DNA of 33,627 nt from a virus: the IMG/VR virus record IMGVR_UViG_3300022752_000228, positions 1-33,627 of that record; one strand, given 5' to 3'. The notes under the pieces are model-generated. The model saw only the letters and a list, made by a program, of their open reading frames with translations. It had not been told where the DNA came from and searched no databases. Within the stretch, counting starts at the first letter, position 1, and every line of letters begins with the position of its first letter. Shown here in pieces: positions 1,754 through 33,627 of the stretch. The position numbers and the translations under genes are program-made.

Positions 1754-2245
1754 TTACATCACACGAGATAGCGCAATTACCTTGCTTGCATATTTTTCAC
1801 CCTCCTTACATTTAACTCTTCCGCAGTTGTAGACCGTCAGCGCCTTCTTCAAGTCACCGTGTTGATCCAACTCTTCCGCTAGGATGCGAGCCCCGCACCG
1901 CACGTTATGCACCGCATCCCAAAGCTTTTGGTCATGAGATAGACCGCACCGCTTAGCATTAAACGGCATAATCTGAGCGACGCCCCTAGCGCCTACAGGC
2001 GATAGTGCGTTTGGTCGGTAACTACTTTCGACTTGCACTAGAGCCCGTAGGACGCTCCTAGACACGTTCCAGGCATCAGCCGCCTTGTCTACCTCACTCT
2101 CGATTATCGTTCGTGTAGGCGTGACGTACAGGCCGAAAAACCGTTGTACATGAAAGCGCAGGTTATTAGCCGGTGGCGCAAACAGCGCCGCCGCCAATAG
2201 CAGGACGACGATACCGCCGCCGCCCTGCTTTTGACCCTGGCTCAT
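1754..2245 (-). CDS. Membrane-anchored lytic transglycosylase (SLT/VirB1-like)
   Basis: The 163-aa protein has a Gly/Lys N-terminus, one hydrophobic segment (residues 11-24) and a C-terminal SLT domain from about residue 50. The catalytic glutamate is probably E73 in the motif V-Q-V-E-S-S-Y, followed by the family pattern G-A-R-G-V-A-Q-I-M-P, C-G-A-R-I-L and A-L-T-V-Y-N-C-G. The family cleaves the MurNAc-GlcNAc bond in peptidoglycan, here probably from the periplasmic side of the inner membrane. Four extra cysteines could form disulfides. The ATG overlaps the preceding stop as ATGA. It lies in the leftward block next to a lipoprotein and a small membrane protein and not with the late lysis genes, which is unusual. 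Confidence 0.88.
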   Translation of the reverse strand: MSQGQKQGGGGIVVLLLAAALFAPPANNLRFHVQRFFGLYVTPTRTIIESEVDKAADAWNVSRSVLRALVQVESSYRPNALSPVGARGVAQIMPFNAKRCGLSHDQKLWDAVHNVRCGARILAEELDQHGDLKKALTVYNCGRVKCKEGEKYASKVIALSRVM

Positions 2246-2409
2246 TTACGCCGCCCTAGTTGTTGTACCTGTTCAATCGGGTCGTTACCAAACACTTGCG
2301 TCTGAATACCGATCCAACAGGTCACGCACCCCACGAAAAACGCAACGTGAAGCAAGGACACAATGATACCCGTTGGTGTGAATAGTAGTTGTTTGATGTT
2401 CTCAATCAT
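2242..2409 (-). CDS. Small single-pass membrane protein, 55 aa
   Basis: The start is the ATG of M-I-E-N-I-K-Q-L-L, with AGGTGA upstream. A longer frame from 2454 would overlap the lipoprotein gene and lacks a site. A single hydrophobic span (about residues 13-33, G-I-I-V-S-L-L-H-V-A-F-F-V-G-C-V) is followed by a short polar tail ending Q-L-G-R-R-K. It sits 8 nt after the lipoprotein gene and overlaps the transglycosylase start by 4 nt. The trio lipoprotein, membrane protein and transglycosylase reads as one envelope unit. A holin or inner-membrane spanin role is conceivable, but no family is recognised. Confidence 0.72.
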   Translation of the reverse strand: MIENIKQLLFTPTGIIVSLLHVAFFVGCVTCWIGIQTQVFGNDPIEQVQQLGRRK

Positions 2410-2417
2410 GTCGTCAC

Positions 2418-2630
2418 CTATTTCAGTTCTGTAGTCTGCGGTTGTGAGTAGCAATCAACAAAGTAGCATTTGAGCGGTACCTTGTTCTCTACGTTTGTCC
2501 GGCTGGAATCTTGACGCTCATCCACACGATACACGCCCAATTTGCCGCCGACCTCGATCCCTGTACAGGCTGAACAGCACAGCACGATGAGGCCAACCAA
2601 AAACTTAAATACGTTACTTATTAGTTTCAT
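2418..2630 (-). CDS. Small predicted lipoprotein, 70 aa
   Basis: The N-terminus has a lysine, a hydrophobic core (F-K-F-L-V-G-L-I-V-L) and a plausible lipobox, C-C-S-A-C, at about residues 18-22; signal peptidase II cleavage before one of these cysteines would give a short lipoprotein. The mature part is polar, with two further cysteines (L-K-C-Y-F-V-D-C) and a glutamine/threonine-rich end. AAGGAG stands about 8 nt upstream of the ATG. Position beside a small inner-membrane protein and a transglycosylase is compatible with an outer-membrane spanin subunit or an exclusion lipoprotein. Neither can be decided from sequence. Confidence 0.72.
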   Translation of the reverse strand: MKLISNVFKFLVGLIVLCCSACTGIEVGGKLGVYRVDERQDSSRTNVENKVPLKCYFVDCYSQPQTTELK

Positions 2631-2709
2631 TGTCTTTTATCTCCTTAGCTTAAACTGAGCCTTCAACTAGCACCCACGCCGCCGCCTATTTAAGACGGTA
2701 GCGAAGGGA

Positions 2710-3045
2710 CTATTCTAGGCCATACGGGTTAATGGGATTACCCAACGCATCGTTCGGCACCACTTTCTGGATCGTTTGTTGCCGTGTTGCGTTCCAGTCT
2801 CCTAGTAATTGCCGCCCAACGTCAGGCCGTTCCCGTGTCTCTGTAATTATGCTGTAGCCGGTCCCCCACGGACCACGGTCACGTGGTACCGGTAACACCG
2901 GCTGAACGGCTATACCGTAGGGTGACGGGTAATAAGGGGACTCTAGGCTATTGGCTGGACCCGTTGGGGCCTCTAGTTCGCCTATAAGGCCTTGAGCCGT
3001 TGCCACGGCTGGCATAAGTGCAAGGGTAAAGATTAGTGTTTTCAT
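2710..3045 (-). CDS. Secreted protein of unknown function, 111 aa
   Basis: It begins with a classic type I signal peptide (M-K-T-L-I-F-T-L-A-L-M-P-A-V-A-T-A-Q-G), with probable cleavage after A-T-A. The mature chain is rich in Pro, Gly and Tyr (L-E-S-P-Y-Y-P-S-P-Y-G-I-A-V-Q-P) and has no cysteine or recognisable enzyme motif. AAGGGA precedes the ATG at a good distance, overlapping the end of the upstream gene's stop region. It is the first member of the envelope group in transcription order. A periplasmic role during the early stage of infection is likely, with no further assignment. Confidence 0.75.
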   Translation of the reverse strand: MKTLIFTLALMPAVATAQGLIGELEAPTGPANSLESPYYPSPYGIAVQPVLPVPRDRGPWGTGYSIITETRERPDVGRQLLGDWNATRQQTIQKVVPNDALGNPINPYGLE

Positions 3046-3053
3046 GTTGTCCC

Positions 3054-3476
3054 TTATTGCTTTATAGACTCAACCACGTTGAGTTTGGCGATATACCGTA
3101 AATTAGCGTCCACAGTGCCGGCATCCCAATTGCCAGGACCTTGAAGCAATACAAACAGCGCCTCAATTACAGCCGCCACGCCGTTGCCCAAAACAGGATC
3201 TTTACCAATGGCAGAATTAAACCGGCCTCGAAACCCGTTACAATAGAGTTCTAAGCCGTTGATCATTTGCTTCATGCCTTTATCAAGATCCGTTGATTCC
3301 GCCATGAAAGCTTTGTGTTTTTCGTTAGCTACAGATTGCGGCGCTTCCAACTGTAGTATTTTCGACCATCTTTCAAGACTCAAGGCATTAGTTTTGTGGG
3401 TTAGAATCTTATCCCGTAACTCTTGCATGGTGATAAATGAGGAATGATCTCGCATTGGTTGGTGTCGTGTTTTCAT
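3054..3476 (-). CDS. Unknown protein, paralogue of the next upstream gene (140 aa)
   Basis: Residues 70-140 align with the whole C-terminal part of the 93-aa product at 3548-3829. Both share M-I-(N/D)-G-x-E-x-Y-C, then G-(K/E)-D-x-V-L-G, then L-L-x-G-P-G-x-(W/F)-D-x-G-T-(V/I)-D and I-A. The N-terminal 60 residues are extra and predicted helical. The conserved GPG-D-GT-D core looks like a small folded domain, but I do not recognise it as a known family. The start at the first ATG has AAGGG about 8 nt upstream. A weak GC-rich hairpin-like stretch lies in the 71-nt gap to the upstream paralogue. Confidence 0.7.
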   Translation of the reverse strand: MKTRHQPMRDHSSFITMQELRDKILTHKTNALSLERWSKILQLEAPQSVANEKHKAFMAESTDLDKGMKQMINGLELYCNGFRGRFNSAIGKDPVLGNGVAAVIEALFVLLQGPGNWDAGTVDANLRYIAKLNVVESIKQ

Positions 3477-3547: not shown

Positions 3548-3829
3548 CTATTCAAAACCTTTAATTTTATATTCATTCGCAATATTACCGATGGCTTTAT
3601 CAATGGTGCCACCATCGAAACGCCCTGGGCCGTTAAGCAGTCCAGCCAAGCCGCTCAAAATCGATTCCATTTCAGCGCCCAAAACATAATCTTCACCGAT
3701 AATCCAATCGTTTTGATCTTTTATTGCTTTGCAATACATTTCAGCGCCATCGATCATGGCTTTCAATGCCTGTTCAATAGGTGTAATGCCTACCAGTAAC
3801 ACCCCCGTAGGGGGTGCCCTGCTAGTCAC
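3548..3829 (-). CDS. Unknown protein, shorter paralogue (93 aa), GTG start with early hairpin
   Basis: This is the shorter copy of the domain in the 3054-3476 product, here with G-E-D-Y-V-L-G and L-L-N-G-P-G-R-F-D-G-G-T-I-D. The frame opens at a GTG whose G is the last base of the upstream stop (TAGTG overlap), which suggests coupled translation. Codons 5-10 carry a perfect 7-bp inverted repeat, CACCCCC/GGGGGTG (3800-3816, 3-nt loop). This could slow initiation, or it may mean the true start lies further in, for example at the GTG of V-L-L-V-G-I-T or the ATG of M-I-D-G. Function unknown. Confidence 0.65.
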   Translation of the reverse strand: MTSRAPPTGVLLVGITPIEQALKAMIDGAEMYCKAIKDQNDWIIGEDYVLGAEMESILSGLAGLLNGPGRFDGGTIDKAIGNIANEYKIKGFE

Positions 3830-5567: not shown

Positions 5568-5718
5568 TGAGGTGGTAAAGCCGTTAAAGGTCCCTTTGAG
5601 TGAGTTGTTGCGACTTGCTCAAGAGACTGCGGAGGATGACATCCGGCAGGAAGATAGGGACAAGTTGATTGAGCGGGTAATGGAAGCGGTTAAGAAGGTA
5701 GAGGCAAATGACGTATAG
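5560..5718 (+). CDS. Small acidic helical protein, 52 aa, GTG start
   Basis: The frame is open from further upstream, but the GTG at 5560 (M-S-D-E-V-V-K-P-L) has AGGGAG about 6-8 nt before it and gives the usual short overlap (8 nt) with the preceding stop. The product is almost entirely helical and charged (L-R-L-A-Q-E-T-A-E-D-D-I-R-Q-E-D-R-D-K-L) and looks like a coiled coil. No family recognised. Confidence 0.6.
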   Translation: MSDEVVKPLKVPLSELLRLAQETAEDDIRQEDRDKLIERVMEAVKKVEANDV

Positions 5719-6259
5719 TTTAGTTGGAGAATTATCACGGCATATCTACTGCTATGTCGATAGCAGTTACACGCATACTGAATGCCAAGGCTTTTTGCCG
5801 TGTGTTTGGTTTGGCTTAGTGTCGTATCCAGGCAGAACGTGGGGTTGTACGGTGATGTTAGAGTGTGGAGCGATTTACCGTAACGTTCCGGCTCATGCGA
5901 TAGCGTTTGATAAGGACCCACAAAATCCCTGGTTCGCAGATGAGGCTCAGAGTTATGACTGTTACGGAGAACGATTTACGACACTAGAATATACCTACCT
6001 TTCTGGCTTGGATTGTAAAGCTAAGTGCAAGGATATCCCGTATGAAGGTAAATATTTATTTACCGTTGCTCCGGTAGGTGACGGCTATAGTGCGTATCCA
6101 GAGCAAGCTAAGGAGTTTTGTTTTATTCAGCTTGATAACGGACGTCTGACCATCCAGCCTACCAACCATGTAGTGTTTAGAGAGCGTAGTTTTACCGACA
6201 ATAAGCTGGAGTTTCCTAGCGGATTACGACGGCAAACAGATATATGGAGTGCGGAATGA
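5708..6259 (+). CDS. Hypothetical protein, 183 aa
   Basis: The product starts M-T-Y-S-L-V-G-E-L-S-R and overlaps the preceding gene by 11 nt. It is rich in Tyr, Phe, Trp and Cys (at least nine cysteines, for example C-Y-V-D, T-E-C-Q-G, L-P-C-V-W, D-C-K-A-K-C-K) and looks like a globular, mostly beta protein without a signal peptide or membrane segment. The cysteine pattern is irregular and not a clear zinc site. No family recognised. It lies in the cassette between terS and terL and overlaps the next gene as ATGA. Confidence 0.7.
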   Translation: MTYSLVGELSRHIYCYVDSSYTHTECQGFLPCVWFGLVSYPGRTWGCTVMLECGAIYRNVPAHAIAFDKDPQNPWFADEAQSYDCYGERFTTLEYTYLSGLDCKAKCKDIPYEGKYLFTVAPVGDGYSAYPEQAKEFCFIQLDNGRLTIQPTNHVVFRERSFTDNKLEFPSGLRRQTDIWSAE

Positions 6260-24539: not shown

Positions 24540-25541
24540 ATGGCAGGTGAAGATTTATATTCAGCACTATCGGGACTGAATTATTCACCGATGGAAAACA
24601 ACTGGGCGCTTGGTTCTCAAGTAATTGGCGCTGGTATGCCGTCGCTCTACAACCAGTATCAAGGTCCTGGCACTACGTTTGGTATAGCTCTTGGTGGCGC
24701 ATTGCTTCAGGGATTGCTTGGCTATCAAGCACGACGACAAGCCGCTGAAGATTCTATAGCAGCCAACCAGCTTGGTCTAAAATTACTGCAAGCGACAACG
24801 CCAGAAGCACGCTTGCAAATTGCGGCATCAGCGCCGGATGTGGAAATGCAGTCTCGGTTGTTAGGACTAAATACTCAACTTCAAACGCAATCTCAATTAA
24901 CGGATCAACTGATTAATCAGGAAATACTTAAACGTAAAGCTCTTGCGGATATAGGCTTGGCCGAAGAGCGAAACAAAATGAATCAACTGGCTGAGTTTGA
25001 ACTCAGTGATTTGGGTCGAAAACAAGCGCAGCGAAAACTAGAAGATTTAATAGCTCTTGAGCAAGCAAAGCGAATACCAACTAGTGGGATTGATCCAGAT
25101 GTTAAAAAACAGGATCAGCAAATAGCACGATATGCTCAAATGGCTGGAAACATAGCCGACAGAGTTGAGGCGCTTAACATGAGTGCGCCAGAGTTTGAAA
25201 TACAGCGCCGTATACCTGGCTCAGAGGCAGAGTTAGTTTATTCGCTCATCCAAGGCAATGTAGCTAACTTTGCTCGACTAGGTGGCAACCAATCTCAAAT
25301 AAGTGACGTAGATAGAAATGACCAATTTAACTCCCTCTTTGGTCCAGATGTGCCAGGACTTGGGCGTGTGACCGGTACGACTGCAATAGCAAACCGTATT
25401 CGTGAGAAGATTAAGATGGCTCCTATATCTTCCAACTTTGGAGCAATTACAGCACCTGGCGAATCAGATGCTCAAAGACGAAATCGAGAGCTTAAAGAGC
25501 GATTGGCTAAACTTGAAGCATTAGCGGCACAGAGAAAGTAA
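24540..25541 (+). CDS. Ejection-type virion protein, 333 aa
   Basis: The N-terminal third has a glycine-rich hydrophobic patch (T-F-G-I-A-L-G-G-A-L-L-Q-G-L-L-G) that could insert in a membrane. The middle is a long helical coiled coil (Q-S-Q-L-T-D-Q-L-I-N-Q-E-I-L-K-R-K), and the C-terminus another short coiled coil (R-E-L-K-E-R-L-A-K-L-E-A-L-A). Such a pattern fits a protein that lines the DNA channel across the inner membrane. It overlaps the next start by one base. Confidence 0.62.
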   Translation: MAGEDLYSALSGLNYSPMENNWALGSQVIGAGMPSLYNQYQGPGTTFGIALGGALLQGLLGYQARRQAAEDSIAANQLGLKLLQATTPEARLQIAASAPDVEMQSRLLGLNTQLQTQSQLTDQLINQEILKRKALADIGLAEERNKMNQLAEFELSDLGRKQAQRKLEDLIALEQAKRIPTSGIDPDVKKQDQQIARYAQMAGNIADRVEALNMSAPEFEIQRRIPGSEAELVYSLIQGNVANFARLGGNQSQISDVDRNDQFNSLFGPDVPGLGRVTGTTAIANRIREKIKMAPISSNFGAITAPGESDAQRRNRELKERLAKLEALAAQRK

Positions 25542-28447
25542 TGGATCCACTTGACCAAGAGAACGCACTACTGGAACAACGCATAGCGCAACTTGAAGCG
25601 TCTCTTGGTTCTTCACAGCCACAGCCAGAGCCAGCGCAACCAAGTGGCTATGGGCTAGGGCAATTAGCGTTTGATGTTCCTGTGGGAATAACTCGTGGAG
25701 TCGCTGGACTAGCTGACGTTCTCTCGTATCCGTTTGTAAAAGGCTTAGAATACGCTGGCGCTCCAGTAGAAACCTTTGGAGCAACAAAAGCTCTTGACGC
25801 TTTGATTGCTGGTTCTCCTGCGTTGGAAGGGCCTGGAGCCGCAGAGATACTTGGCGTAAGACCTCAGACCGAAGTTCAACGAGCGGTTGAATTTATGACT
25901 CCTGGTCCTGGAGGTAAAGGCAAATTGCTTAACGAAGCTGGTCTTGGATTAGCCAGCTACCTTGGAACTAGAGCCGGAGAAACTATAGCGCCAGAGTCGC
26001 AGTACAGCGGGTTAGTTGGTGCGCTACTTGCTCCGACAGCAGTACAGTCAACCGTTAGTGGCGTTAGGGGTTTGGCATCAGCATTGACGCCAACAGCCAA
26101 GATTGTGTTGGGTAACGAGGATGCGTTACGCACCGCAGCCAATGCAAACGTAGTTGCAGCACTTGGCGAAGAGGGCGCACAGCGTTTAGCAGTAGCACAG
26201 CAAATACCAGAGCTTGGAATTGGCGCTGGTGGCGTACCGCTGACAGCAGCAGAAATAGCTCAGACACCAAGTGCGGCTAAGTACCAACAGAGCTTCCTTA
26301 ACACACCAGAGGGCGGCAACATATTGCAGCCAGCATTGGACGCTCGCAAGTCAGAGCTTACAGCAGCATTAGAGCGTTTTGGCATTACACCACAGCAGGG
26401 TGAAATGTCGCTTATGATGCGTGATGCAGCAGAGACAGCAGCAACTCAAAAAGCATTGCAAGATAACGCTATTGCCTCTGCTTTGGGAACAACCGCAACA
26501 GGCGAGGGATTAACTAAAGGCGAAAAGAGCAAATTGTTACAATCTAATTTGCTAGAGCGAGAAAATGAAGCGTATTCGCCAGTAAGCGAAATTTGGGAAC
26601 AAGTAAATAAGAAAGCTAAAATGGACATAGTTCCACAGCTTATTGATACAATAAACGAATTTAAGCAATTTGGTCCTCTAACTAAAAAACGAATTAGTTC
26701 CGTAGCTAAAGACGCAATTAAAACCGCTCGTAAGATTGTTTACAAAAAAGATGGATTAATTACAGTTGGGCAATATCAAGACCTGCGAGCCACTGCCAAT
26801 GCTGCGCTAAGAAACGCAGATAAAACCACTGATGCCGCCGAAATTTCTTTAATGCGCAAACTAAAGAATGGGTTAGATAGCATTGATGAATCCGCAATTA
26901 TAAGCAGAGGCGGCGAAGAAGAACTTGGAAATTTAATTGATGCTATAAAAGCAACCAAGCAATTTAAACAAACCTACGCTCAGGGCGTTGTCGGCGAAAT
27001 ACTTGGCAAACGTGGTGGAGAATTAAAAGTAAAAGCGAGCCAAGCGATTGATCGAGCTTTGAAAGCTCCAGAAAATATCACCGAAATTTTTGGTAAATTT
27101 GGCAAAGAATCGGACGAAGCTGTTGTTATCCGAGATGAGTTGCTAGCAAGACTAACTCAAGCTAAAAATCCAACTGAATACCTTGGTAAAAACAAAGATT
27201 TATTTAAGTCAGCTTTCGAAAGTGATTATGCAAATGTTGTTAATTTTGCACAAAAAAGAGGTCAAGGCGCTCCACTAGAAGAATTTAGTAAAATTACAGA
27301 CTCTACAATTCCTAACAGGATATTTGCCAACGAGCGCAGCGCAGAAAAGTTTGCACGGCAGTTTGCTGATTCACCAGTGTTGCAGATGGGACGAGCTAAG
27401 TTCATTAGTGAAAAGCTGATGAAAAAAGGCGCACCGCTTGAGAATCTTACAAACAACAAAGCCATTGCTAAGAAGTTGTTCAAAGATGACCTACCAGAAC
27501 TTGAGAAGGTACTTAAAGACCTTGAGGTTTCCAAGAGTCCAGCGGCGCTAGAGAAGCAAGCAGCATCAGGGAACTCTATTACAAGTATCAGGCAAACTGC
27601 ATTAGGCGCTCTTACTGGCGCTCGTGGCGTAATTAATGCAATGCGTAAAGGAACATTAGCTGGAACACTTGCTGGCTCTGGCACTATGACAGGAGCCTTG
27701 GTTGGTTACAGCGTCGGTAATTGGGTCAAGCAAATTGGCGAAGCTCGCAACTTTGCCATGAACGCTTTTGAGGCAGAACTATTAGCTAATCCAAAGTTGA
27801 TTAAGCTGGCATCTGCGCCACCAACCAAAGCAAACATTGATGCGCTTATGCAGTTTGGCGTACAGCTTGGTTACTTCAGCGGCAAAAGCCAAACAGAGAA
27901 TGTTGTTGATACACCAGAGATGACAGGGTCAGTTGCAGCTACTGCGCCGCAGCAAGACTTTGAGTCTGAAAACATGCTTCTTGAGCAGCGCATCTTAGAG
28001 CTAGAAAAGACGCTTAATCCTGCAAGCCAAGTAAAGGTTGGCAAACAAAACGTAAGCCTTCCGCAGGGAGACGAGTACGCTCCAACGAGCTTGGTCAAAG
28101 CGGTCATACAAGTAGAGTCTGCTGGCAACAAAGATGCAGTTAGCAGCAAGGGCGCTCGTGGCCTTATGCAACTTATGGCTGGCACAGCTAAAGACCTTGG
28201 CGTGGATGCCACAGACCCTGAACAAAACGTAGAGGGAGGTAGCCGTTATCTTCGTCAGCAGCTTGATACGTTCGGCGATGAGCGGTTGGCATTGGCAGCG
28301 TACAACTGGGGTCCGGCTAACATTAAGAGCGCTATAGCTAAAGTTAAGGCTGAAGGCAAAACGCCAAGTTGGGACAACATTAAGCAGTTTGTTAAGATCC
28401 CAAAAGAGACTAGAGAATACGTCGATAAAGTTTTGAGATTAGTATAG
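25541..28447 (+). CDS. Internal virion protein with C-terminal lytic transglycosylase domain (968 aa)
   Basis: This is the largest gene. The C-terminal 130 residues form an SLT domain with probable catalytic E859 in V-I-Q-V-E-S-A-G, then G-A-R-G-L-M-Q-L-M and A-L-A-A-Y-N-W-G. It would cut peptidoglycan as the DNA enters. Residues 7-22 and 810-825 share a coiled-coil motif, E-N-x-L-L-E-Q-R-I-x-x-L-E, with 11 of 16 identical. Between them is a helical body with Ala/Gly-rich hydrophobic segments, for example around residues 700-730 (G-A-L-T-G-A-R-G-V-I-N-A-M and L-A-G-S-G-T). In T7-like phages the transglycosylase is at the N-terminus of gp16; here it is C-terminal. Confidence 0.85.
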   Translation: MDPLDQENALLEQRIAQLEASLGSSQPQPEPAQPSGYGLGQLAFDVPVGITRGVAGLADVLSYPFVKGLEYAGAPVETFGATKALDALIAGSPALEGPGAAEILGVRPQTEVQRAVEFMTPGPGGKGKLLNEAGLGLASYLGTRAGETIAPESQYSGLVGALLAPTAVQSTVSGVRGLASALTPTAKIVLGNEDALRTAANANVVAALGEEGAQRLAVAQQIPELGIGAGGVPLTAAEIAQTPSAAKYQQSFLNTPEGGNILQPALDARKSELTAALERFGITPQQGEMSLMMRDAAETAATQKALQDNAIASALGTTATGEGLTKGEKSKLLQSNLLERENEAYSPVSEIWEQVNKKAKMDIVPQLIDTINEFKQFGPLTKKRISSVAKDAIKTARKIVYKKDGLITVGQYQDLRATANAALRNADKTTDAAEISLMRKLKNGLDSIDESAIISRGGEEELGNLIDAIKATKQFKQTYAQGVVGEILGKRGGELKVKASQAIDRALKAPENITEIFGKFGKESDEAVVIRDELLARLTQAKNPTEYLGKNKDLFKSAFESDYANVVNFAQKRGQGAPLEEFSKITDSTIPNRIFANERSAEKFARQFADSPVLQMGRAKFISEKLMKKGAPLENLTNNKAIAKKLFKDDLPELEKVLKDLEVSKSPAALEKQAASGNSITSIRQTALGALTGARGVINAMRKGTLAGTLAGSGTMTGALVGYSVGNWVKQIGEARNFAMNAFEAELLANPKLIKLASAPPTKANIDALMQFGVQLGYFSGKSQTENVVDTPEMTGSVAATAPQQDFESENMLLEQRILELEKTLNPASQVKVGKQNVSLPQGDEYAPTSLVKAVIQVESAGNKDAVSSKGARGLMQLMAGTAKDLGVDATDPEQNVEGGSRYLRQQLDTFGDERLALAAYNWGPANIKSAIAKVKAEGKTPSWDNIKQFVKIPKETREYVDKVLRLV

Positions 28448-28457
28448 GGAGATTTGT

Positions 28458-29618
28458 ATGCCTTGGTCCGGTGGAAATTATACAAAAGGTAACTCAGCGA
28501 CTGGTGGTTGGACTGGCGATCAATCGCTTGGCATCGGTATTGAAGCTGGACGGCACGACACGCAAGATAACGACTTTGCCACTGGCATTAACCAGTGCCT
28601 TAACAAAGACGGTAGCAACGCTGCTACTGGCAATCTGAACTTTGGAAACTTTCGCCCCACAAACATCAACGCTGGAACGGCAGCGGCACCAGCTATCTGT
28701 GCTGGCAATGATGTTAATACCGGAGTATTTGGACCTGCCGCTGACACCTGGGCGGTTGCTACTAACGGCAGCGAGCGTGTGCGAATTGATAGTACTGGAC
28801 GAGTGGGGATTGGTACTTCAGCGCCAACATCCGCACTACAAGTAACGGGACAAATAGACGGAATTCCCGATGCTGTTGGTGTTCATGTTGGAATGGTTGG
28901 AACCTCCTATGCTTGCATTGAACTAACCGGTTCGACTGGTGGAATAATTGATTTTACGGATGCGGGGGTCGATAACAAAGGCCGAATTCTTTATACCAAT
29001 AGTGATAATTCGATGGCGTTTAACACTAACGGTGCAGAAAAGTTGCGTATTACTAGCGCAGGTAGAATTGGAATCAATCAAAACAATCCTCAATCAATAG
29101 TTTCAATTTTTAACAATGAAAGTGCATCAGTTTCTACAGGACTTTTTCAAAGCAATGTTACTGGTGATTTAACAATCCACGCTTTAGTAGTTGGAAAATT
29201 TGATAATAATACAACTACTAGCCAGCGGTTTATTGGGTTTACGCATAATGCAGGTGCCAATGGTAACGGGCAAATAAACGCTAACGGAAGCGGTCAGGTT
29301 GCATTTGGAACTTTTTCAGATGAACGGCTTAAAGAAAATATTGTTAATTTGCCCACACAGCTTGCAAACATCATGGCAATGCGTCCCGTTGAGTTTGATT
29401 ATAAAGATGGAAGCGGGCATCAAATTGGATTCATCGCACAAGAAATACAGCAGATATATCCTGATTTGATTGCAGATCAGGGCGACGGCTTTTTGACTCT
29501 TTCTGGTCTTGGAAAAAACGAAGCTCGGATGATTAAGGCTTTTCAAGAATTTGCAGAATTAACTCAGGCAACAATTACGGCACTTGAAGCACGAGTAGCA
29601 GCACTAGAGGGAGCATGA
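28458..29618 (+). CDS. Tail fibre with C-terminal S74 self-cleaving chaperone domain
   Basis: The 386-aa product has a beta-rich fibre body (R-V-R-I-D-S-T-G-R-V-G-I-G-T and K-L-R-I-T-S-A-G-R-I-G-I, a typical fibre repeat) and a C-terminal S74 domain. The domain starts at F-S-D-E-R-L-K-E-N-I, with S287 and K292 as the catalytic pair; M-R-P-V-E-F-D-Y and I-G-F-I-A-Q-E-I follow, and a coiled coil ends the chain. In this family the domain drives trimer folding and then cuts itself off. GGGAG precedes the ATG. It is the likely receptor-binding protein. Confidence 0.92.
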   Translation: MPWSGGNYTKGNSATGGWTGDQSLGIGIEAGRHDTQDNDFATGINQCLNKDGSNAATGNLNFGNFRPTNINAGTAAAPAICAGNDVNTGVFGPAADTWAVATNGSERVRIDSTGRVGIGTSAPTSALQVTGQIDGIPDAVGVHVGMVGTSYACIELTGSTGGIIDFTDAGVDNKGRILYTNSDNSMAFNTNGAEKLRITSAGRIGINQNNPQSIVSIFNNESASVSTGLFQSNVTGDLTIHALVVGKFDNNTTTSQRFIGFTHNAGANGNGQINANGSGQVAFGTFSDERLKENIVNLPTQLANIMAMRPVEFDYKDGSGHQIGFIAQEIQQIYPDLIADQGDGFLTLSGLGKNEARMIKAFQEFAELTQATITALEARVAALEGA

Positions 29619-30034
29619 AGCAGCTCAGGCTTGTCAGAGTTACAGAGTTTAACAACGCCACACTTGGCGTACTCTGTATTGATGACTCGCCTGAGATGGT
29701 TACGCTGGAAGACGCATGGAGGGATAACGAGCGGCGCATCTCCTGCATCCCAGTTGGTCGATACACTATTAAGCTACATCGGTCGCCTAAGTTTGGCTTA
29801 ACGTATCAAGTTATAAACGTGCCTGAACGTGACCAGATTCTTTTTCACGCAGGGAACACACATAAGGACACGCACGGTTGCATCCTGCTTGGATTGCAGT
29901 ACGGACGGCTCGATAAGGAGACGGCCATACTTGCAAGCAGGTCGGCGTTTCAGAAGTTTATGGAGCTGATGGGCGGCGCTACAGAAGCACAACTAGTTGT
30001 TATAGATGCTTATGGTGGAGGCCGTGTACATTGA
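29615..30034 (+). CDS. DUF5675-like protein with L,D-transpeptidase-type HGC motif (139 aa), lysis region
   Basis: Residues 76-92 contain F-H-A-G-N-T-H-K-D-T-H-G-C-I-L-L-G. H78 and the T-H-G-C at 86-89 match the active-site pattern (S/T-H-G-C) of YkuD-fold L,D-transpeptidases. DUF5675 proteins occur next to holin genes in many phages and are suspected cell-wall enzymes. It overlaps the S74 fibre stop as ATGA with GAGGGAG upstream. In this genome it is the best candidate for the main endolysin, as no classical lysozyme or amidase is found. Confidence 0.72.
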   Translation: MKQLRLVRVTEFNNATLGVLCIDDSPEMVTLEDAWRDNERRISCIPVGRYTIKLHRSPKFGLTYQVINVPERDQILFHAGNTHKDTHGCILLGLQYGRLDKETAILASRSAFQKFMELMGGATEAQLVVIDAYGGGRVH

Positions 30035-30273
30035 CCGACGGAGATTTCACTCAAATACGCTATTGGCTCGACATTGCTGTAAAGGCTTTGATTGGCATTG
30101 TCATATCCATTGTTGGCATGGACTATCGTTCAGTTAAAAACTCACTGCACGAACTAGAAGAAAGTAAGTATCGTGTAACGATGGAAGTGCAAGTCATTCA
30201 AGCAGAACTTAGCCACATTAAGCAGCGACTAGAGCGCATTGAACAGAAACTTGACAGGGTATTGGACAAATGA
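30031..30273 (+). CDS. Single-span membrane protein with coiled-coil tail, holin/spanin-like (80 aa), TTG start
   Basis: Read from TTG (30031) because GGTGGAGG lies about 9 nt upstream and the overlap with the previous stop is 4 nt; no ATG gives the full membrane span. One hydrophobic helix at about residues 12-31 (I-A-V-K-A-L-I-G-I-V-I-S-I-V-G) is followed by an 18-residue connector and a coiled coil (Q-A-E-L-S-H-I-K-Q-R-L-E-R-I-E-Q-K-L-D-R-V-L). This matches small phage membrane proteins next to lysis genes, often annotated as holin-like. Confidence 0.7.
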   Translation: MTDGDFTQIRYWLDIAVKALIGIVISIVGMDYRSVKNSLHELEESKYRVTMEVQVIQAELSHIKQRLERIEQKLDRVLDK

Positions 30274-31103
30274 TGCGCGTGCTTATAACGATACTTTTTG
30301 TATCTTTATACGCACCGATAGCAAACGCAGCGCCTAGTTATTTGGCAATGTGCCACAAAGATTGGAACTGTAAAGCGACGTTGCAAACGCTTGCAGCGCA
30401 AGATGCCGTCGTTACTGGCTGGATCGAAAACACCTTTAACGCTCAATGTCCATGCGGCGATAAGCTTTTGGCGTTGCCAAACCCTAAAGTTATTCGGGTA
30501 CACCTTATCAATTCGCCGTGTATGCGTAACCGACGATGCGGTCGATACGAAGTCCTATACGGCTATTCTAAGGCTTCTGCCAGTCGAGCGGTCCACATGC
30601 AAGGGTCACGGCTCAATCGACGATTTAATGCTGTATTAGAGCGGTTTAAAAAACGATTGGCAAAAGCACAGAGTCCAGTTCAGTGCTACGTCAGTCCTTG
30701 TTTGGAGTGTGACTTAGATGGACCAGCACGAAGAGCTTTACTCAATCGGGTATCTGTTGCTTTGCCTAGCTGTATTCTTGTGGACAATCCACACCGGCAA
30801 CGTTGTCTCAGGGGGTTCGTTTGTGAGCGGCACGGAAACAGTGTGCCAGAGTCTAAGCCGTGTATAACGGATATGGATGGGCTGGACGGCGCTACCGTGT
30901 CTGTAAAAAGATGGGTCGCTAATTCCAGACATTGTGCTATTAGGTACTATTGGGAACCGTGGATGAATTGTAACACTAGCATTGGTGGTACGTTTGTTGA
31001 CCCTCGAAAAAGAGAGTGCGGTTTTCGTTTGAAAAACTTTGATAGAACAACGGGTATTTTATGCCGATACTTTTATCCATCGTCCGACATTTGCTCACGT
31101 TAG
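30270..31103 (+). CDS. Secreted cysteine-rich protein of unknown function (277 aa, 18 Cys)
   Basis: A clear signal peptide (R-V-L-I-T-I-L-F-V-S-L-Y-A-P-I-A-N-A-A) is followed by a mature chain with 18 cysteines spread over the full length (for example M-C-H-K-D-W-N-C, A-Q-C-P-C-G-D-K, S-P-C-M-R-N-R-R-C, S-P-C-L-E-C-D, M-N-C-N-T-S). It is basic overall, with several R-x-R motifs. It should be oxidised in the periplasm. It lies between two membrane proteins of the lysis region. No homologous family can be named; roles in lysis, outer-membrane disruption or exclusion are all guesses. Confidence 0.7.
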   Translation: MMRVLITILFVSLYAPIANAAPSYLAMCHKDWNCKATLQTLAAQDAVVTGWIENTFNAQCPCGDKLLALPNPKVIRVHLINSPCMRNRRCGRYEVLYGYSKASASRAVHMQGSRLNRRFNAVLERFKKRLAKAQSPVQCYVSPCLECDLDGPARRALLNRVSVALPSCILVDNPHRQRCLRGFVCERHGNSVPESKPCITDMDGLDGATVSVKRWVANSRHCAIRYYWEPWMNCNTSIGGTFVDPRKRECGFRLKNFDRTTGILCRYFYPSSDICSR

Positions 31104-31246
31104 CCGCCGGTGGCTTGCTTACGATTGGCGTTGAAGCTGATGACGCTCAAAACCTTGTACATGCCGCAGAGCCGGTTGTAGCTGGCGCTGTGTTGTATGG
31201 TGTGTCTCAAGCTTGGTCTGTAATCGACAAGAAGAAGAAGCGTTAG
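31061..31246 (+). CDS. Small holin-like membrane protein, 61 aa
   Basis: Two hydrophobic segments, about residues 2-20 (P-I-L-L-S-I-V-R-H-L-L-T-L-A-A-G-G-L-L) and 36-50 (V-V-A-G-A-V-L-Y-G-V-S), are separated by an acidic loop (E-A-D-D-A-Q) and followed by a lysine-rich end (D-K-K-K-K-R). This is the layout of small class II-type phage holins such as the Pam3 gp28 group. It overlaps the end of the cysteine-rich gene by 43 nt and its stop overlaps the convergent gene by 4 nt. Confidence 0.75.
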   Translation: MPILLSIVRHLLTLAAGGLLTIGVEADDAQNLVHAAEPVVAGAVLYGVSQAWSVIDKKKKR

Positions 31247-33372: not shown

Positions 33373-33619
33373 CTTACACAAGCGACTCTACGCAATAATG
33401 CCTGAGTTGCCACCTATCAGCACCCATAAGACAGGAACGCATGGCACCTACAAGGCTATCGACCACGAAGGAAACGTGTACGAAGTAGAGATTTGGTACG
33501 TCGATAACACGATGCACCGCAGAGAGCGGTTCGTTATGAACTACGCTCTACTGGCAGCGCAGTCACATGATGCAGTCGAGCCCCGATTAAAACCGCATGA
33601 AGGATGGAATCTGGATTGA
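33335..33619 (+). CDS. Hypothetical protein, 94 aa, crosses the assembly junction
   Basis: Start M-Q-Q-K-H-Y-K-G-L-S-L is chosen because AAGGA stands 8 nt upstream; an ATG 9 nt earlier is too close to that site. It overlaps the HTH gene by 38 nt. Mixed alpha/beta (G-T-Y-K-A-I-D-H-E-G-N-V-Y-E-V-E-I-W-Y-V), no motif recognised. The last 46 residues or so are repeated at the window start. Its transcript would run into the terminators at 212 and 311. Confidence 0.7.
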   Translation: MQQKHYKGLSLTDLHKRLYAIMPELPPISTHKTGTHGTYKAIDHEGNVYEVEIWYVDNTMHRRERFVMNYALLAAQSHDAVEPRLKPHEGWNLD

Positions 33620-33627
33620 TTGTAGGG
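33478..33627. repeat. Terminal direct repeat, right copy
   Basis: Matches bases 1-150 except at 33604 (A, versus G127) and 33626 (G, versus A149). See the left copy for interpretation. Confidence 0.95.

Follow-up and report, generated by a model that had tools for sequence, protein, structure and literature searches.

A conserved lipoprotein and membrane protein pair, usually with a lytic transglycosylase, in uncultured phages and its possible role in superinfection exclusion

Introduction

The portions of the exclusion literature consulted here name, among known exclusion factors of phages, small lipoproteins made early in infection (PMC9586334, PMC12685063) and inner-membrane proteins (PMC10883804, PMC11436027), and they describe P22 as a podovirus with ejection proteins (PMC10883804). 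Here we describe an envelope block in the virus record IMGVR_UViG_3300022752_000228 (33,627 bases, analysed as a whole and called the window, to which all gene coordinates refer). The block occupies positions 1754-3045 of the minus strand and consists of genes for a secreted protein (SEC), a lipoprotein (LIP), a membrane protein with one span (TM) and a lytic transglycosylase (SLT), followed by the gene for a RecT-type protein. A module of LIP, TM and SLT is not described in the portions consulted of the exclusion and Cor/FhuA lipoprotein literature.

The T4 protein Imm is 83 amino acids long and has two hydrophobic spans. Imm (and Sp) resembles the module in being an early phage membrane protein, and imm lies in the interval between gene 43 and uvsX, as does the module in its T4-like carriers. 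However, Imm is without sequence similarity to TM and is paired with neither a lipoprotein nor a transglycosylase. P22 SieA differs, by description, in being a single protein expressed from the prophage, with no lipoprotein or SLT. The T5 Llp, Cor and Rtp45 group acts on one receptor, the sources as far as consulted name no partner or enzyme for it, and it has no sequence match to LIP beyond the signal peptide. Members of the SLT family (PF01464; EtgA, Slt70, MltC) share with the module enzyme an SLT domain with a catalytic Glu, but the module SLT is signal-anchored, has four near-invariant Cys residues and is always coupled to TM in podovirus and T4-like carriers. The signal-arrest-release (SAR) endolysins, such as P1 Lyz, have an N-terminal signal-anchor segment similar in hydropathy to that of the window SLT, whereas the module SLT belongs to another enzyme family and lies on the RecT strand, and its T4-like copies are strongly anchored.

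Results

The first-pass annotation of the window had pointed to four consecutive leftward genes for exported or membrane products, one of them a membrane-anchored SLT, directly upstream of RecT, and the reading frames bear this out. On the minus strand lie SEC (3045-2710; 111 amino acids, with a signal peptide), LIP (2630-2418; a 70-amino-acid lipoprotein with lipobox Cys22), TM (2409-2242; 55 amino acids from an ATG start) and SLT (2245-1754; 163 amino acids, membrane-anchored, PF01464 at 3.7e-21). The export of SEC and the lipidation of LIP are predictions read from the sequence. The TM and SLT reading frames share 4 bases. The RecT-type single-strand annealing protein (1717-863, minus strand; PF03837 at 1e-27, phrog_252 at 4.1e-40) starts 36 bases past the SLT stop.

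We then searched virus contigs for the same genes. The loci come from scans with short patterns, which makes all counts lower bounds, and the contigs are related to one another. Loci were merged into contigs by contig name, entered by hand; L198-L221, L223, L224, L226-L237 and L241 stand outside the tally, their contigs being already represented. A query with SLT alone gave 44 virus contigs, in which TM was adjacent in 44/44, while LIP was present in 41/44 and SEC in 38/44. The three LIP misses all begin at a contig edge, and the six SEC misses comprise three at edges, two T4-like contigs (L012, L046) and L013. Adding SEC, LIP and TM queries brought the set to 76 distinct contigs. Gene order was constant in 76 of the 76 for the genes present, so the possibility raised beforehand, that these genes are never kept together, does not hold. 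All five genes were found in 56 contigs, and the partial sets were TM-SLT-RecT (4), LIP-TM-SLT-RecT (4), LIP-TM-SLT (4), SEC-LIP-TM-SLT (3), LIP-TM (3), SEC-LIP-TM (1) and LIP only (1). The gaps fall at contig edges except in L062 (same contig as L013) and in the T4-like and Sak4-type carriers described below.

The overlap of TM with SLT measures 4 bases in 62 of 71 cases and 1 base in four T4-like copies; the remaining five odd overlaps arise because reading-frame starts in the tally were taken as the longest reading. The distance from SLT to RecT, on the other hand, varies from 12 to 854 bases, and RecT is therefore a neighbour outside the unit. Ratios of nonsynonymous to synonymous substitution (dN/dS) against the relative L057 were 0.07 for SEC, 0.14 for LIP, 0.02 for TM, 0.08 for SLT and 0.05 for RecT, a clear sign of purifying selection on the block genes; in the less certain pair with L059, SEC gave 0.38 and the synonymous sites of LIP and TM were saturated.

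The carriers belong to three phage backgrounds. One is that of RecT podovirus-type phages like the window. Another consists of the T4-like contigs L012, L046, L087 and L088, plus L069 at an edge, which encode gp44, a split DNA polymerase gp43, UvsX and gp41. In these phages LIP-TM-SLT is flanked by gp43 and, on the opposite side, by a SAM-hydroxide adenosyltransferase-like gene and UvsX, with no SEC and no RecT alongside. L087 and L088 probably represent a single virus, as their LIP and TM are identical. The third background is that of the Sak4-type contigs L238, L239 and L240 (phrog_124 at 8.9e-16 for L240), which hold LIP-TM; all three lack an early SLT and SEC and have one virion SLT (PF01464). 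Since LIP and TM persist in these three contigs without the early SLT, the enzyme is not the core of the module. SEC is an accessory member confined to the podovirus type. Thus, the four genes proposed as a unit are indeed linked in many contigs, but they are not the minimal set, as LIP-TM also occurs where SEC or SLT is missing. The module proper is LIP-TM(-SLT).

A concatenated tree with midpoint rooting groups the T4-like copies in a single clade (support 0.89) beside podovirus copies, a pattern consistent with movement of the whole module between phages. Single-gene trees of LIP and of TM did not resolve the relation between T4-like and podovirus copies. For L012, L087 and L088 (three of the five T4-like contigs), the source metagenomes also gave a podovirus carrier.

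The predicted signal peptide of LIP ends in the lipobox Cys22 in 30 of 30 members, as in bacterial lipoproteins; the +2 residue is Thr or Ser, and the -3 residue in the window is Cys, which is atypical for a lipobox. The mature part of about 49 residues is strongly conserved across unrelated phages. Besides Cys22, the residues Gly24, Glu26, Gly28, Asp37, Ser42, Thr45, Pro52-Cys55 and Cys60 are invariant in all 30, giving the mature part two invariant cysteines, Cys55 and Cys60. Past the signal helix the AlphaFold2 model has low confidence (mean pLDDT 62.5). In TM some 20 residues follow the single span, with a short conserved tail, V.G.DP; the invariant residues of the protein include Lys6, His21, Gly27, Thr30 and Pro44 (20/20 sequences), and its charge pattern suggests an N-in/C-out orientation. 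A 70-amino-acid reading of TM from a TTG start was rejected, the 55-amino-acid ATG form being the conserved one. SEC is proline-rich, and QPV.PVP..G.WGTGYS and a C-terminal Q..VPN..G.P are among the elements of its conserved core.

The early SLT scores 75.3 bits against PF01464 (cut-off 21.3). Glu73, whose catalytic role we take from the family, is present in 72 of 72 sequences, as are Arg35, just past the membrane anchor, and Cys100, Cys117 and Cys141; Cys146 is present in 71. The first-pass annotation had also placed a second SLT in the virion, and we located it at the C-terminus of a 968-amino-acid protein encoded at 25541-28447 on the plus strand. The two enzymes are 39% identical over 84 amino acids, and the virion SLT has no Cys within its last 130 residues. 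The four near-invariant cysteines, with none in the virion SLT, point to a periplasmic, disulfide-stabilised early enzyme, although the positive-inside rule gave no clear support for a periplasmic orientation of the anchor. Wherever a relative showed both the module and the virion SLT, the two were on opposite strands, with the module on that of RecT.

Matches to the module outside these contigs were few. No PHROG assignment with a convincing E-value was obtained for SEC, LIP or TM (for SEC, 0 of 18 members matched any PHROG), and Padloc found nothing among six early proteins. LIP had no relative in PLSDB plasmids, and 24 pattern matches in GTDB genomes gave none that was confirmed. The sole LIP match in INPHARED (MT839931, E 0.3) was dismissed as chance, with no listed open reading frame of at least 45 amino acids in that frame; SEC has no relative in INPHARED. 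Bacterial relatives of the early SLT are distant even at their nearest (best E 2e-13, 34% identity), and a LIP, TM or SEC match was found at 0 of their 63 loci. A bacterial origin of the module was rejected on the absence of a confirmed LIP in GTDB and this remoteness. Among isolates, Pseudanabaena phage Pam5 has the closest terminase, at 41.7% identity. By these searches, taken together, no cultured model is close by.

We also examined the timing implied by the layout. The leftward early strand covers, besides the block and RecT, an Arc-like protein, and the rightward strand carries capsid, portal, terminase, virion SLT and the late region. Upstream of the block, at 4077-4049 on the minus strand, lies a sigma-70-like site, TTGTCA-17-TACTAT, as a candidate promoter for the leftward genes. 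Of the 76 contigs, only L056 and L059 have a BLAST match that covers the site, and in both of them the two hexamers are kept at the corresponding position. Yet sigma-70-like sites in the upstream region number 3, against 6.2 expected from shuffles. The early-type promoter claimed at first is thus a weakly supported candidate, which does not rise above chance by count. Strand, RecT and replication-gene neighbours, together with this weakly supported promoter, suggest that the module is expressed early.

The late region (29615-31246, plus strand) is separate from the block, as had been supposed. It encodes a DUF5675 protein (29615-30034; DUF5675 at 1.5e-34) with an H...THGCI stretch that we take to recall YkuD-type enzymes, a protein with a transmembrane segment and a coiled coil (30031-30273), a secreted, Cys-rich protein of 277 amino acids without a Pfam or PHROG match (30270-31103) and a holin-like protein of 61 amino acids (31061-31246). 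The DUF5675 protein is kept in 14 of 14 relatives and the 277-amino-acid protein in 13, the fourteenth giving a distant match; G005 (L084 13618-14601, plus strand) has no gene for the latter at the usual place and has a distant homologue on the early strand. The AlphaFold2 model of the 277-amino-acid protein (pLDDT 84) is a TIM barrel like that of glycoside hydrolase family 5 (GH5), with Z 15.8 to the GH5 mannanase 3wh9, a Foldseek E above 0.001 in PDB, and an invariant Glu146 directly after the fourth strand. This makes it a candidate late glycosidase. The T4-like carriers L088 and L069, the two contigs checked, each have their own Phage_lysozyme gene.

Other features of the window lie apart from the module. 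The 150 bases at positions 1-150 are repeated at 33478-33627 with two mismatches, and because of these overlapping ends the window is probably a nearly complete circular map. Upstream of SEC, the minus-strand genes at 3054-3476 and 3548-3829 are paralogues (38% over 69 amino acids, E 8e-16). A 183-amino-acid protein encoded at 5708-6259 on the plus strand matches PHROG 3704, annotated as ferredoxin (1.9e-20).

Discussion

The linkage of LIP, TM and SLT, their coupling and their conservation indicate that the three proteins work together. Our tentative reading, which we prefer while holding it somewhat short of probable, is that they form an early envelope-exclusion complex with LIP-TM as its core, usually with SLT, and with SEC in this phage group. 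In this view, outer-membrane LIP and inner-membrane TM would make contact across the wall, SLT would trim peptidoglycan locally to allow this, and the complex would then keep out the DNA of later phages, an effect that P22 SieA and T4 Imm achieve at the inner membrane by means of other proteins. Exclusion, also suggested by the first-pass annotation, is put forward because the interval between gp43 and uvsX, which holds the module in the T4-like carriers, holds imm in T4 and, in Serratia phage SP1, a gene annotated 'immunity to superinfection membrane protein'. This analogy is suggestive only.

Several observations weigh against exclusion. The gp43-uvsX interval is a variable slot, and an annotated immunity gene was found there in two of the eight T4-like isolates sampled. 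TM showed no similarity to T4 Imm (hhalign E 0.14, one column aligned). Homology of LIP to the receptor plug Cor was rejected: PHROG Cor matches occurred in 4 of 30 LIP members (best E 0.006), and in the three inspected the phrog_1119 match spans LIP residues 1-21 or fewer, which is the signal peptide. None of the exclusion systems in the portions of the literature consulted includes a lytic transglycosylase. The shortfall of sigma-70-like sites against shuffles does not favour early expression, and the SLT anchor in the window resembles the signal anchor of P1 Lyz (hydropathy 1.97 and 2.21; Gly/Ala/Ser/Thr fraction 0.44 and 0.50, respectively), as would suit a role in lysis.

That resemblance is what an auxiliary function in lysis or wall weakening would predict, with SLT a SAR-like endolysin kept inactive in the inner membrane, TM a small holin or regulator and LIP a disruptor of the outer membrane. 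The intact catalytic Glu in all early SLTs fits this, as do the lack of a Pfam endolysin among the three late proteins tested and the persistence of the early SLT in G005, which is without a close copy of the 277-amino-acid protein. However, the T4-like SLTs have highly hydrophobic anchors with little Gly/Ala (0.06 and 0.17), unlike P1 Lyz. The block shares the RecT strand and operon in podoviruses and lies in the replication-gene region in T4-like phages, and the three Sak4-type contigs hold LIP-TM without any such enzyme. Because the late region is kept, and with a separate Phage_lysozyme in the T4-like carriers, lysis as the main role, one of the suggestions of the first-pass annotation, is disfavoured, and we regard the auxiliary form as unlikely. 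The spanin-like LIP/TM pair suggested with it fares no better: TM is too short after its span, the module has no coiled-coil partner, and the LIP model past its signal helix is not reliable enough to speak for it.

Alternatively, the module may remodel peptidoglycan or envelope for the phage itself, anchoring a membrane complex or easing its own second DNA-entry step, with no exclusion. In trans-envelope machines the dedicated transglycosylase is likewise anchored and has partners in both membranes, and a tape measure protein and the type III secretion enzyme EtgA are among the PDB entries matched by the SLT profile. Nevertheless, the module encodes no other component of a conduit and LIP-TM survive without SLT, and we consider such a self-serving role quite unlikely. 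It is still harder to credit that LIP alone plugs a receptor, as T5 Llp, Cor and Rtp45 do, with TM, SLT and SEC as unrelated passengers. The size and lipid anchor of LIP do fit the exclusion lipoproteins described in the portions consulted (PMC9586334, PMC12685063), but LIP-TM linkage is strict in three phage backgrounds, and mature LIP is highly conserved between unrelated phages, unlike a single-receptor factor; we hold this explanation to be highly improbable.

The preferred reading, an early exclusion complex around LIP-TM, can be carried further to a proposal that we regard as doubtful. The module might be a minimal phage trans-envelope machine, in which LIP and an inner-membrane peptide meet by way of a docked SLT, made early, mobile between unrelated phages that share hosts, and acting as a general gate for DNA entry. 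The sharing of the module between podovirus and T4-like carriers, in three cases by contigs of one metagenome, suggests that it acts on an envelope feature common to their hosts and not on a single receptor, and the LIP-TM core is small enough for direct testing. If the proposal is true, phages would have an exclusion or gating device whose genes, one of them for a wall-cutting enzyme, are linked and transferable together; no such arrangement appears in the exclusion papers in the portions consulted.
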